Shown one piece after another: positions 1,424-6,870 of a DNA stretch of 64,000 nucleotides. Under the pieces are notes generated by a model. That model did no database searches, was not told the origin of the DNA, and worked only from the letters and a program-made list of their open reading frames with translations. A program made the position numbers and the translations under genes. Source of the DNA: an uncultured Aliiroseovarius sp. (GTDB lineage Bacteria; Pseudomonadota; Alphaproteobacteria; Rhodobacterales; Rhodobacteraceae); NCBI RefSeq assembly GCF_947497285.1, contig NZ_CANMFT010000008.1, forward strand, positions 124,001 through 188,000, written 5' to 3'. Within the stretch, counting starts at the first letter, position 1; every line of letters starts with the position of its first letter.

Positions 1424-1603
1424 GGCGTGCTCCGGAACAAGGTTCTGAAAACCATAGCAGCGGGCGAAAAAAGGACCAGCCGAAAGCGCCGGCGCAAATG
1501 CGGTTCCAATGTCCGCACCCCTGCCCGTTTCACTTAGCAAGACCCGTTGAAGCGCCACGCCCTTTCGCCTAGCCTGCGCGCAACGAAAACGAGGGAGACT
1601 TTC

Positions 1604-2896
1604 ATGTCCAACGACCGCCAACTGGCCTTTGACACGCTGCAAATTCATGCTGGCACCGAACCTGATCCGGCCACCGGTGCCCGTCAGGTGCCGATTTACC
1701 AGACCACCGCCTATGTCTTCAAAGACGCCGACCACGCTGCGCGGCTCTTCAATCTGGAAGAAGTGGGCTACATCTATTCCCGCCTGACCAACCCGACGAT
1801 CGCCGCCCTGCAAAACCGCATCGCGGCGCTGGAAGGTGGTGCGGGTGCTGTGTGCTGTTCGTCCGGTCACGCGGCACAAATCATGGCGCTGTTCCCGCTG
1901 ATGTCGCCGGGCAAGAACATCGTTGCCTCGACCCGTTTGTATGGTGGGTCCGTCACGCAGCTGAGCCAGACCATCAAGCGGTTCGGCTGGGAAACCAAGT
2001 TCGTCGATTTCGATGACGAGGCCGCCGTGGCCGCTGCCATCGACGACAACACCCGCGCGGTGTTTTGCGAATCCATCGCAAACCCCGGTGGCTACATCAC
2101 CGACATTCCGGCAATTGCCGCGATTTCGGACAATGCGGGCGTGCCGTTGATCGTCGACAACACCTCGGCCACCCCTTACCTGTGCAACCCGATCTCGCTG
2201 GGCGCGACGCTGGTCGTGCATTCGACCACAAAATACCTGACCGGCAACGGCACCGTCATGGGTGGCTGCGTGGTGGATTCGGGCAAGTTCGACTGGATGG
2301 CGTCCGACAAGTTCCCGTCGCTCAGCCAGCCAGAGCCCGCCTATCACGGTCTGGTCTTTGCCGAGGCGCTCGGCCCGATGGCGTTCACCTTCCACGGCAT
2401 CGCCATTGGCCTGCGCGATCTGGGCATGACCATGAACCCGCAAGCCGCGCATTATACGCTGATGGGGATCGAGACCCTGTCGCTGCGGATGGAAAAACAC
2501 GTCGCCAACGCCGAGAAAGTCGCCAATTGGCTGGAAGCCGACCCGCGTGTCGATGCCGTGACCTATGCGGGGCTGGACAGCTCGCCCTATAAGCACCGCG
2601 TGGCCACCGTCTGCCCGAAGGGCGCCGGCGCTCTGTTTACGGTTGCTGTGAAAGGCGGCTATGACGCCTGCGTCAAGCTGGTGGACAGTCTGGAACTGTT
2701 CAGCCACGTCGCCAACCTTGGCGACACGCGGTCGCTGATCATCCATTCGGCCTCGACCACGCACCGGCAATTGTCGCCAGAGCAGCAGAAAGCCGCAGGG
2801 GCTGCACCCAACGTGGTGCGCATCTCGATCGGGACCGAGGATGCCGCTGACATCATCGCCGATCTGGATCAGGCGCTGGCGAAGGCCACGGCCTAA
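1604..2896 (+). CDS. metY: O-acetylhomoserine aminocarboxypropyltransferase/cysteine synthase
   Basis: Cys/Met metabolism PLP family: LQIHAGTEPDPATGARQVPIYQTTAYVF, SATPYLCNPISLGATLVVHSTTKYLTGNG; ATG at 1604. Confidence 0.93.
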   Translation: MSNDRQLAFDTLQIHAGTEPDPATGARQVPIYQTTAYVFKDADHAARLFNLEEVGYIYSRLTNPTIAALQNRIAALEGGAGAVCCSSGHAAQIMALFPLMSPGKNIVASTRLYGGSVTQLSQTIKRFGWETKFVDFDDEAAVAAAIDDNTRAVFCESIANPGGYITDIPAIAAISDNAGVPLIVDNTSATPYLCNPISLGATLVVHSTTKYLTGNGTVMGGCVVDSGKFDWMASDKFPSLSQPEPAYHGLVFAEALGPMAFTFHGIAIGLRDLGMTMNPQAAHYTLMGIETLSLRMEKHVANAEKVANWLEADPRVDAVTYAGLDSSPYKHRVATVCPKGAGALFTVAVKGGYDACVKLVDSLELFSHVANLGDTRSLIIHSASTTHRQLSPEQQKAAGAAPNVVRISIGTEDAADIIADLDQALAKATA

Positions 2897-2968: not shown

Positions 2969-3667
2969 TCATTCTTCAAGCAATTCGAACACCATAGTCA
3001 CGCTTGATCCGATCTCAAGCTCGCCCGCCGCAATCGGCATGTCCGACTGCGCGGCCTCCATCGTCATGCGGCCATAGACTGGCGCCGCCCGTGCGCCGCC
3101 TTCGCGGATCGAGATGATCGGCCCCAGCGTGACACCCGCAGCGTCCGCCAGCACCTTTGCCCGCGCCATCGCGTCCTTGACCGCATCTGCGCGCGCCGCG
3201 TCTTCGGCGCTGGCCCGGTCCTGCACGTCAAACTGCAGCCCGTTCAGTTGATTTGCACCGTCCTGCGTTACCGCCGACATGATCGCGCCCAGTTGATCCA
3301 ATGCGCGCACCTGCACAGCTAGTGTCGTGCTCGCGGTGAAGCCTGTCAGCTTCGGTGGCCCATCGCTGTTGCGGTTGTAATCATAACGGGGTGCCAGGCT
3401 GACCTGCGCAGTTTGCATGTCGCGCGGGGCGATCCCAACCGCCTCCAGCCGTGCGAATATCGCCTGCGCGACCTCGGCCACGCCCTCAAGTGCGGCGGGC
3501 GCCTCTGGCGCGTCTTTGGTCACGCCAAGGCTGATCCGGGCCATGTCCGGCACCACGTCAGCGACGCCCTGCCCTGTGACCGTCAGTCGCGCTGCAGCGT
3601 CGTTTTCAGCTTGAAGCGGCGTGGCAAACGCCAACACCAAACCCATAATCGCAATCGTTCTTCGCAT
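2969..3667 (-). CDS. SIMPL domain (DUF541) periplasmic protein
   Basis: Signal peptide MRRTIAIMGLVLAFATPLQA then LTVTGQGVADVVPDMARISLGV, typical of DUF541/SIMPL. Confidence 0.88.
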   Translation of the reverse strand: MRRTIAIMGLVLAFATPLQAENDAAARLTVTGQGVADVVPDMARISLGVTKDAPEAPAALEGVAEVAQAIFARLEAVGIAPRDMQTAQVSLAPRYDYNRNSDGPPKLTGFTASTTLAVQVRALDQLGAIMSAVTQDGANQLNGLQFDVQDRASAEDAARADAVKDAMARAKVLADAAGVTLGPIISIREGGARAAPVYGRMTMEAAQSDMPIAAGELEIGSSVTMVFELLEE

Positions 3668-3853
3668 CTTAGCCTCCTGTTTCGGCCACTTTGCGCCGAT
3701 CTTCGCCATGTGCAAGGCTGCCCTCCAGCCCCCCTTTCCATGGGCAATTTCCTGCTATAGTTTCAATGCAGTGGGCCCAGCCAATGGGATGTGCCTGCTT
3801 TGAAGAAGGGTCCCGGTCTATTCGGGTGGGGTTACGACAGGACGTCAGACGGC

Positions 3854-6829
3854 ATGAAACCCAATTTCGCGCTTGATCTCAGCCATGACGGCATCGGTCT
3901 TGTCCATAGAGGCAAGGGCGGCTGGACGCTTGTGGGCGAGTTGTCGCTGGACGACCCCGATATGCATGGTGCGCTCGAGCGTCTGCGCCAAAAGGCAGCG
4001 GCGTTGGAAAGTGGCGGGTTTTCGGCCAAGCTGATCATCCCCGGATCGCAACTTCTTTTCACTAGCCTGACCGCCCCCGGCCCCGATGACGTCACCCGCG
4101 AGGCGCGGATACGCGAAGGGCTTGAGGGGCTGACACCTTATGCGGTGGACGATCTTGTGTTCGACTGGCATCCGGACGCGAACGATACGGCCTTGGTCCA
4201 TGTCGCGGTTGTCGCCCAAGAAACGCTCGACGAGGCAGAAGCTTTCGCAACAGAGCACAAGCTTAACCCTGTCAGTTTTGTGGCCCGTCCCGAAGCCAGC
4301 TTTTCGGGCGAGGCATTCTTTGGCCTGTCCAGCGCCAATGTGTTGGCGCCGGGCACGCGGGTTGATCGTGATACGCGCCCCGTTCCCGTCCTTTTGGGAC
4401 AGACCCCAGCCACGATACAAGCGACCGCAACTGCGGCCCCTGACCAAAGCACCTCTGAGCCCGAAGGCACGGCCAGCACGGACACCAGCGCGCGCAAGCC
4501 TTCGGACGGGGCCAAAACGCTGCCGGAACTTGCCCCCTTCCCGCCAACCCCGGAGCAGCCGGCCTCACCTCCGCTGACCCTTGGCAGCAGCGATCGCACC
4601 GACAAGGCGCGGTCGACCGATGCGAATTCAGACCCGGCGGGCGCCAAGCAACCCGCCGCCCCGGAGCGCGAACCCAGCCTGCCACCCTCCACCAAAGCGC
4701 CTGCAGCACAGACCCGTGCCGAGCCGTCCGAAACGCCTTCTGCGCCACCGCCACCACCTGCGCCTCCTGCGCCGTCCACTGACCCGGCTGTGCGCCCGCA
4801 GACGCAGGCCAGCCCCTCATTCTCGTCCAGCCGCGCGGAAGAACGGGCAGAGGTTTCTGCCGTGGATCATACTGACCCGCGACCAGAGGACGACGCCGCT
4901 GACCGCCCTGACACATCCCCCACGGCCCCTGACAAACCTGCCGCTGACAAGCCTGCGCCCGAGGCGCCGCAAGTCGAGCCGGCGCCGGACGCTCTGCCCC
5001 GGTTGTCGTTTGGCGTGAGCCGGGACGCGGCTGATCTTGCCACACCGCCACAGGCCAGCTCTGAGCAGCCCGACGGTGATGCACCGACGGCGCCCGCAAA
5101 GACGGTTCACGTGCCCGTCACTGCGCCCACCGCATTCGGGGACGACCCTGATCTTGCGTCGGCCGAGGCATCCAAACGCCCTGAACGCAACGCCGTGAAA
5201 GGGACCGAGAAACTCGCCACGGCGGCCCGCAAAAGCGTGGCTGGTGTGGCGGCGGCGGCCGGTGCGGCCAGCGCCATCGGGCGCAATGCCGCCAAGAAGC
5301 TGCCGCAACCTCGCAAGACCGCAACAGACACGCCAAACACGCCCGAGGCCGGACGCGCGCGCGCATTCGGGCTGCGGCGCAAACAGGAAGCGGCGCAATC
5401 GGCCGAAACCGATACCGCCATCGCGCCGCCGCCGCAGCCGTCACAGGCGTCACAGGCGTCACAGGCGTCCGGGGCAACAGGCCAACGACCCCCATCGCGC
5501 CGGACCCGTGAAGCCGAAGCGATGACGATCTTTGGCGCGCGTCAGACGCAGGTTATCGGCGGAAAACCCAAATATCTTGGGGTCTTTCTGGTGCTTGGTT
5601 TGCTGTTGTTCATGGCGGTCGTGGTGATCTGGTCGATGTTTTTCATGACCGACAGCACGGCGTGGTTGTTTCCAGACCGTGAAGACCAGTTCGAAGCGGC
5701 GATTTCGTCACGTCCAATTGACCTTGATCGCGCCGAGATCGACGCGGCCAACGCCCCTACCCATGATCAGGAAGATGGCGCACTTGTTACCGGGGCCGAT
5801 CCGAACGCGCCCGACCCCTTATCCTCCGAAGCCGCCCAAGCGCGCTATGCCGCGACCGGGATCTGGCAGCGGTCCCCGGACCCGTTGCGCGACCCCGTGA
5901 CCGATGATCTGGACGATCTCTACATCGCCTCAATCGACCCGCTGGCAGGCAACAATGATGCAATCGCCCTGCCCTCGCCTGCGTTGACCGTCTTCGGGGC
6001 CGAAGGTCTGCTCCTGGCCGCCCCGCCCCCCTTGGGCACCACGTTTGCGTTGAACGAAGACGGGCTGGTTCTGGCAACGCCTGATGGCGCGCTGACACCG
6101 GATGGCGCGATCGTATTTGCTGGGCGTCCATCGCTGTTTCCCGCCCCGCGCCCGGGCAGCACAACCGAGCCGGAACCAGAAGAGGCCACCGAGGTCGCGC
6201 CGGGGCAGCCCGGTCTGCGCCCCCGCGCGCGCCCTGAGGGCCTGATCGAAGGCAACGAACGGTTGCAGCTCGGCGGGCGCACACGTAACGAAATGGCTGG
6301 CTTGCGCCCACGCGCGCGCCCAACAACGCCGAAAGCCGCCGCTCAGGCCGCCGCGATTGCAGCAGCGCTTGAAAACGCCGAGGTTTTCGAAAGCGCAGCG
6401 GCGGCAGTCATCGCCCCGACCAAGCTGGCCATCGCCAAGTCGATCGAACCACGCCATCGCCCGCGTAATTTCGGCAAGATCGTCGCGCAATCACGCGACA
6501 ATGGGGATGCCTCTGATGGGTCTGTCGTCGTGGCGGCCGCCGCGGCCTCGCCGGCGCAAACCGTTTCTCCGAAGATCCCGACCCGTGCCTCGGTGGCCAA
6601 GCAAGCCACGATCAAGAATGCGATCAATCTGCGCAAGGTCAGCCTGATCGGGATCTACGGTTCGGCCTCGGCGCGGCGCGCCTTGGTTCGGCTGCCATCG
6701 GGTCGTTACTTGAAAGTCGGGGTGGGCAGCCGACTGGATGGTGGCAAGGTTCTGTCGATCTCGGCCACGAAGCTGGTTTACAAAAAGGGGTCGCGCACCC
6801 ACGAACTGGTCGTGCTTCCCTTCAGCTAG
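3854..6829 (+). CDS. Large single-TM, Pro/Ala-rich protein with GspL/PilM-like N-terminus and GspC/PilP-like C-terminus
   Basis: N-term FALDLSHDGIGLV..LIIPGSQLLFTSL..REGLEGLTPYAVDDLVFDW; TM YLGVFLVLGLLLFMAVVVIWSMFFM; C-term VSLIGIYGSASARRALVRLPSGRYLKVGVGSRLDGGKVLSI. Start could also be 3791. Confidence 0.8.
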   Translation: MKPNFALDLSHDGIGLVHRGKGGWTLVGELSLDDPDMHGALERLRQKAAALESGGFSAKLIIPGSQLLFTSLTAPGPDDVTREARIREGLEGLTPYAVDDLVFDWHPDANDTALVHVAVVAQETLDEAEAFATEHKLNPVSFVARPEASFSGEAFFGLSSANVLAPGTRVDRDTRPVPVLLGQTPATIQATATAAPDQSTSEPEGTASTDTSARKPSDGAKTLPELAPFPPTPEQPASPPLTLGSSDRTDKARSTDANSDPAGAKQPAAPEREPSLPPSTKAPAAQTRAEPSETPSAPPPPPAPPAPSTDPAVRPQTQASPSFSSSRAEERAEVSAVDHTDPRPEDDAADRPDTSPTAPDKPAADKPAPEAPQVEPAPDALPRLSFGVSRDAADLATPPQASSEQPDGDAPTAPAKTVHVPVTAPTAFGDDPDLASAEASKRPERNAVKGTEKLATAARKSVAGVAAAAGAASAIGRNAAKKLPQPRKTATDTPNTPEAGRARAFGLRRKQEAAQSAETDTAIAPPPQPSQASQASQASGATGQRPPSRRTREAEAMTIFGARQTQVIGGKPKYLGVFLVLGLLLFMAVVVIWSMFFMTDSTAWLFPDREDQFEAAISSRPIDLDRAEIDAANAPTHDQEDGALVTGADPNAPDPLSSEAAQARYAATGIWQRSPDPLRDPVTDDLDDLYIASIDPLAGNNDAIALPSPALTVFGAEGLLLAAPPPLGTTFALNEDGLVLATPDGALTPDGAIVFAGRPSLFPAPRPGSTTEPEPEEATEVAPGQPGLRPRARPEGLIEGNERLQLGGRTRNEMAGLRPRARPTTPKAAAQAAAIAAALENAEVFESAAAAVIAPTKLAIAKSIEPRHRPRNFGKIVAQSRDNGDASDGSVVVAAAAASPAQTVSPKIPTRASVAKQATIKNAINLRKVSLIGIYGSASARRALVRLPSGRYLKVGVGSRLDGGKVLSISATKLVYKKGSRTHELVVLPFS
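5441..5470 (+). repeat. In-frame 9-bp tandem repeat (tcacaggcg x3+), encoding SQA repeats
   Basis: tcacaggcg tcacaggcg tcacaggcg tcc inside the large linker-rich gene. Confidence 0.85.
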
Positions 6830-6841
6830 GACTGAATGGAA

Positions 6842-6870
6842 GACGCCCGACATCGTGCATGCCGGGCGTC
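6842..6870. terminator. Hairpin between convergent genes
   Basis: gacgcccg-acatcgtgcatgc-cgggcgtc; weak T-tract. Confidence 0.5.

Follow-up and report, generated by a model that had tools for sequence, protein, structure and literature searches.

A predicted fusion of GspL/PilM-like and GspC/PilP-like domains, widespread in Rhodobacteraceae and retained where no secretin is detected

The window, that is, the whole analysed stretch of 64,000 nucleotides of an uncultured Aliiroseovarius sp., contains a gene for a protein in which, as predicted by computation, a GspL/PilM-like N-terminal domain (N-domain) is fused through a transmembrane (TM) helix to a C-terminal GspC homology region (HR)/PilP domain. 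This arrangement within a single chain, proposed in a preliminary description of the same DNA, was borne out by structure prediction, Foldseek and profile searches, and both folds were modelled with high confidence. The HR/PilP domain is the grip on the secretin, and GspL/PilM is the inner-membrane dock of the extension ATPase. The domains are known; literature searches brought up no account of a fusion of this kind or of any GspL-like protein from Rhodobacteraceae, and the secretin-independent distribution of the fusion is unexpected. Rhodobacterales-specific proteins were catalogued by Gupta and Mok (2007). It is rather probable that the protein is an envelope-spanning inner-membrane adaptor, core and vertically inherited in Rhodobacteraceae, derived from two recycled domains of the T2SS/T4P platform and acting with a partner other than a secretin.

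The open reading frame encodes 991 aa plus a stop codon. Its start Met (ATG at 3854) is the exact point where conservation of the family sets in, and homologues are alignable from Met1 to the C-terminus. The nearest relatives belong to Aliiroseovarius and the wider Rhodobacteraceae. Conserved and variable blocks alternate along the protein in the family alignment (Table 1); their lengths were taken from the window protein and distinct full-length homologues. Since the order N-domain, TM, HR is preserved in homologues at as little as ~30% identity, the architecture does not result from chance. No Pfam match was obtained for the whole protein, and in NCBIfam only PilP was matched, under its curated cut-off; the misannotation as ‘translation initiation factor IF-2’, expected in the preliminary description, was not seen. 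Weak matches to SctD/GltJ profiles were also obtained, probably reflecting similarity of the linker or TM.

Table 1. Features of the gene, its surroundings and the genomes that retain it without a detectable secretin
Feature	Position	Strand	Residues (aa)	Basis or details
Whole gene, predicted single-pass inner-membrane protein	3854..6829	+		translation, full-length homologue alignment
N-terminal GspL/PilM-like half-domain	3854..4333	+	1-160	AlphaFold2, Foldseek, hhalign
Variable Ala/Pro-rich cytoplasmic linker	4349..5497	+	166-548	composition, family alignment
Conserved juxtamembrane motif	5519..5572	+	556-573	consensus RMTVFGARxxxxVGGKPRFLG; family alignment
Transmembrane helix	5573..5632	+	574-593	hydropathy peak; model helix aa ~575-600
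Conserved periplasmic block, no recognised fold	5819..6343	+	656-830	family alignment; pLDDT mixed
C-terminal GspC-HR/PilP domain	6569..6826	+	906-991	AlphaFold pLDDT, Foldseek, TIGR03021
Cys/Met-metabolism PLP enzyme (O-acetylhomoserine type, metY), synteny marker	1547..2896	+		Pfam Cys_Met_Meta_PP, 7.6e-123
SIMPL/DUF541 protein, divergent neighbour	2969..3715	-		Pfam SIMPL, 1.8e-52; cluster in 43/81 regions
Hairpin between convergent ends of the gene and hppD, weak candidate (possibly bidirectional) terminator	6842..6870	.		8-bp outer stem, -18.1 kcal/mol
Genomes (at least 90% complete) with the gene but no detectable secretin or RcpC				G066, G081, G092, G103, G107, G127, G131, G139, G154

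The N-terminal ~160 aa were modelled by AlphaFold2 from 68 sequences of the window protein and its homologues, with a mean pLDDT of 95.0 and pTM of 0.89. In the Foldseek search against PDB, the top 15 matches were all cytoplasmic domains of GspL/EpsL or PilM (E 1.8e-7 to 6.6e-5), the best being 4pht_X, GspL (E 1.8e-7), from the GspE-GspL complex; FtsA came next in structural similarity. Comparison with alphaproteobacterial GspL by hhalign gave 92.6% over aa 50-145, a value that was lower with smaller sub-alignments. Sequence matches of individual proteins are weak: PilM_2 was matched by five and T2SSL by three of the 68 members (best E 0.006), the three matches to T2SSL (PF05134), with a best E of 0.028, lay below its cut-off, and a PDB sequence search with the N-domain returned nothing. 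The domain is 158-172 aa long across the family, and its conserved motifs are TPY and AxETLxEAExFA.

The preliminary description had likened the N-terminal ~170 aa to the actin-like domain of GspL/PilM, and the AlphaFold check that it proposed for this region returned a fold of this type, but only the first half of it. The domain ends near aa 160, where the rest of a PilM/FtsA-type fold would start and a variable linker follows, so that the second, nucleotide-binding half is absent and the complete cytoplasmic domain of GspL with its last subdomain is not represented. The ATP-binding signature of ASKHA proteins is likewise not preserved: position 8 of the phosphate-1 region is mostly S, D or T, with no GT/GS. 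From the lack of the ATP-binding half and the degeneration of the phosphate-1 region, we infer that the N-domain is a docking domain and not an ATPase.

The cytoplasmic linker comprises 388 aa (A 20%, P 17%) in the window protein and 101-571 aa across the family, with variable length and sequence and low conservation. The juxtamembrane motif together with the TM occupies 42-52 aa in the family, and the single TM placed earlier at 5566-5646 agrees with the hydropathy peak and the model helix. On the periplasmic side, a variable spacer precedes, and a short linker follows, a block of near-constant length (171-220 aa) and strong conservation, with the conserved sequences ARYAATGIWQRAP, DAVALP, ATPxGALTPDG and RPRARP repeats. 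AlphaFold gave no stable fold for this block, pLDDT reaching ~90 in short stretches, and Pfam revealed no recognised peptidoglycan-binding domain in the protein. Accordingly, of the two low-complexity linkers reported previously, the cytoplasmic one is truly variable, but ~175 aa, about half, of the periplasmic one are strongly conserved.

The C-terminal domain is 83-86 aa long in the family, and six beta strands were modelled at aa 930-986 with pLDDT of 94-97. The best Foldseek matches were PilP (3jc8_Pa, 2y4y, 2ivw) and GspC (3oss_C, 7oio), with TMt 0.78 and rmsd 1.6 A for 3oss_C, GspC in complex with GspD. The NCBIfam model TIGR03021 (PilP) was matched by 67 of the 68 members (best E 1.6e-8), although the window protein, at 23.8 bits, lies under the curated cut-off of 34.65; a PDB sequence search with the HR profile placed GspC on top at a non-significant E of 0.29. 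The resemblance to GspC-HR/PilP noted earlier for the C-terminal ~70 aa is therefore upheld by the six-stranded model, the structural matches and the profile. Judging from the topology, this HR (PilP core) beta domain would lie in the periplasm.

Other proteins with HR-like domains are also encoded in the family. Small HR/PilP-like proteins that stand alone (~90-150 aa) form a second family, present in about 45 of the 121 Rhodobacteraceae genomes (e.g. the C-terminal ~110 aa of L122 3712-5187); one member inspected has no obvious TM or signal peptide. The window's genome (L152 1468-2994 (-), contig C4:230233) and a sister species (L121 4403-5860) also encode a paralogue that lacks the N-domain and resembles GspC in topology, a short N-terminus being followed by a TM, a long Ala/Pro linker and HR. 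The neighbours inspected include glycosyltransferase-like and membrane-protein-like ORFs; none was recognised as a secretin.

Distribution of the gene was analysed in 121 Rhodobacteraceae genomes, each from a different genus: 113 were matched by the N-domain profile and 119 by the HR profile, 120 in union. The C-terminal matches lifting 113 to 120 are mostly at the same locus; since some HR-only matches could be paralogues, 113 is the strict figure. Absence of the gene from eight genomes was considered and rejected, as the loci fetched from most of the discordant genomes contain fragments at contig ends that match the C-profile strongly (L137, L140, L141), divergent copies (L138, L139) or an HR-only form, together with one short form of unclear type (L143); genome G069, with no N-domain match, is 74% complete. 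The HR-only form (L142 4030-4719, genome G051), located beside metY and the SIMPL gene, has a signal-peptide-like start followed by HR, a natural loss of the N-domain and TM. A compact 569-aa version with N-domain, TM and HR adjoins metY in the 2.5-Mb genome G127 (L139 3851-5557 (-)), which contains no detectable secretin, RcpC or MshEN. In a class-level sample of 289 alphaproteobacterial genomes, N-domain matches were found only in its four Rhodobacteraceae members; the order-level sample comprised Rhodobacteraceae only. The best reading is that the gene is core and vertically inherited in Rhodobacteraceae.

Genome context was compared in 80 loci and the window (81 regions). The usual neighbours are housekeeping genes: metY, hppD, cobT and the genes for the divergent SIMPL protein, a CarD-like regulator and an antiporter of the KefC type. 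The gene is adjoined by metY in most lineages examined, the most divergent ones included; copies in the divergent lineages examined are mostly still beside metY, which marks the gene as an orthologue whose position on the chromosome is fixed. The hairpin downstream of the gene had a z-score of -1.4 against shuffles, not significant on its own. As stated previously, no secretin or ATPase gene is adjacent, none being found among the flanking genes examined; the gene was not located in a Tad locus at any locus examined, and none of the recurrent neighbours identified is a division or polarity gene.

Secretin, usually of Tad size, was detected in 109 of the 121 genomes, and RcpC, the Tad marker, in 103. 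Nine genomes at least 90% complete have no detectable secretin, and all nine lack RcpC and keep the gene (Table 1). Typical full-length copies, with the middle block and HR also conserved, are present in G103 and G154. The N, middle and HR blocks of G103 score like those of secretin-bearing relatives, evidence against a gene that is decaying because Tad was lost. It is unlikely that a divergent secretin went undetected in some of the nine genomes, since RcpC is absent from the same genomes. The 2x2 comparison of secretin and N-domain presence (Fisher p 0.36) is uninformative because almost all genomes have both; it is the retained copies that carry the argument. A link to secretin was not supported by the phylogenetic profiles, and the earlier idea that bridging functions of two T2SS/T4P components may be collapsed here into one polypeptide is not supported in the sense of a secretin machine, in view of the nine genomes with no secretin detected, the metY locus and the housekeeping neighbours.

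The window's genome contains one secretin, of the Tad type (C1:511712), and RcpC (C1:513312), both on another contig; no PF05134 match was detected in this genome. Widespread MshEN matches (104/121) looked like an orphan GspE, and this candidate was rejected for the window's genome, in which no separate GspE was found: the sole match there (L136 1058-3127 (-), contig C1:28988) is a GT2 glycosyltransferase with an N-terminal MshEN domain, potentially binding c-di-GMP. Similar-sized MshEN proteins, which are confusable with GspE, occur in about 100 of the 121 family genomes. The gene is not accompanied by a GspE ATPase gene or other gsp genes nearby.

As an adaptor, the protein would dock a cytoplasmic protein through its N-domain, by analogy with GspL, whose corresponding region helps to bind GspE. 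The variable linkers may serve as flexible tethers that reach through the cytoplasm and span the periplasm, while the HR domain would hold a periplasmic or outer-membrane-anchored partner, probably by beta-strand pairing of the kind seen between HR and the N0 domain of secretins. In this way the protein could couple a complex in the cytoplasm or at the pole to the outer envelope. STN-type N0 domains were found in none of the ten genomes searched, secretin-less ones and the window's own included, so that the HR partner is putative. Because the gene is carried even where no secretin is detectable, part of a secretion machine seems to be reused for another job in the envelope. Chances are about even that the fused protein is the inner-membrane element of a dedicated, family-wide trans-envelope structure, neither secretion system nor pilus, with HR re-targeted to a non-secretin partner. 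The bridge is not obligatory, because the N-domain is dispensable in the lineage with the HR-only form. Also counting against the adaptor reading, most genomes of the family do carry secretin, so that there are few absences to judge by.

An accessory role in the Tad (Flp) pilus, in which HR would bind the N-terminal domains of CpaC/RcpA and the GspL-like domain would contact the ATPase of Tad, so as to provide the PilMNOP/GspC bridge that Tad lacks, appears rather unlikely. A Tad-type secretin and RcpC are present in the window's genome and in most genomes of the family, HR of GspC grips the N0 domain of the secretin GspD by beta-strand augmentation in ETEC (PMC3169554), and a survey of type IV filament systems reports that next to Tad loci PilMNOP homologues are missing or very uncommon (PMC6668835). 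However, the nine high-quality genomes with neither secretin nor RcpC detectable keep the gene, full-length in two of them; no examined copy lies in a Tad locus, the place beside metY being fixed, and the association of secretin with the N-domain is not significant. A facultative Tad role is possible in Tad-bearing species, but, provided that the secretin-less genomes are read correctly, such a role cannot be the constraint shared by all. A scaffold at the pole or in the divisome, whose half-domain would bind a cytoplasmic protein of the pole or septum and whose periplasmic part would be anchored to peptidoglycan or an outer-membrane protein, would be a special case of the adaptor and is improbable: the structural proximity of FtsA, the near-universal presence independent of secretion genes and the long disordered tethers flanking the membrane are in its favour, but the identified recurrent neighbours include no division or polarity gene, and no peptidoglycan-binding domain was recognised.

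Both domains come from platform families of T2SS/T4P, as would be expected of a genuine T2SS component, a fused GspL plus GspC served by machinery encoded elsewhere. This reading is highly improbable and already contradicted for the window's genome: its one secretin is of Tad size and lies beside RcpC, T2SSL is not matched, and the single MshEN protein is the glycosyltransferase. Equally far-fetched is the suggestion that the resemblances are a low-complexity artefact and the ends are unrelated small folds. It draws on the weak sequence-level scores given above for PilM_2, T2SSL and TIGR03021, but has been largely refuted by the confident models and the homogeneous GspL/PilM and PilP/GspC top matches, and the end domains are not of low complexity.

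Joined in one chain that is near-universal in a large family and persists where neither secretin nor Tad locus is detected, HR/PilP and GspL/PilM modules are detachable from pili and secretion systems, and may act as a general bridge between the cytoplasm and the outer envelope. For geneticists working with Ruegeria, Phaeobacter or Rhodobacter, this finding offers one clearly bounded core gene and a testable question about its partner. For annotation, ‘PilP’ calls in Rhodobacteraceae need not mean a type IV pilus.

Among known systems, the N-domain is similar to the cytoplasmic domain of GspL of T2SS (PF05134; EpsL/PulL) in the fold of the first half, with equivalents of the IIPxxQ strand, the xTPY/DLxF region and the VAxVAxETL helix. 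Unlike GspL, the fusion protein contains neither the second actin-like half nor the periplasmic ferredoxin-like domain, and its gene lies outside a gsp operon. The same actin-like N-terminal lobe is present in PilM of T4aP (PF11104; Foldseek 4e-7), but PilM is a soluble protein of ~350 aa, which binds ATP and the N-terminus of PilN, while here the lobe is joined in one chain to a TM and periplasmic parts, and its phosphate-1 region is degenerate. The best sequence-level relatives of the N-domain are short GspL-like proteins of other Alphaproteobacteria (L148-L150), in which a truncated actin domain is located directly before a TM. They share with the fusion protein the truncated N-domain with a TM after it and the TP(F/Y)..d.v.F region, although their periplasmic part looks like PilN/GspL and contains no HR domain.

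With GspC HR/PilP (PF11356, PF04351, TIGR03021) the protein shares the six-stranded HR fold and the GspC-like order of TM, linker and HR; it differs in its large cytoplasmic domain, its persistence without a detectable secretin and its score under the TIGR03021 cut-off. The Tad/Flp pilus is the sole secretin system detected in the window's genome, but the fusion gene is located outside the Tad locus and retained where Tad is absent. A precedent for HR/PilP joined to another platform component is provided by the PilO-PilP fusions of T4P, mentioned for example for Pseudomonas putida (PMC3169554); the partner in these fusions is PilO, not PilM/GspL, and they are described as T4P proteins.
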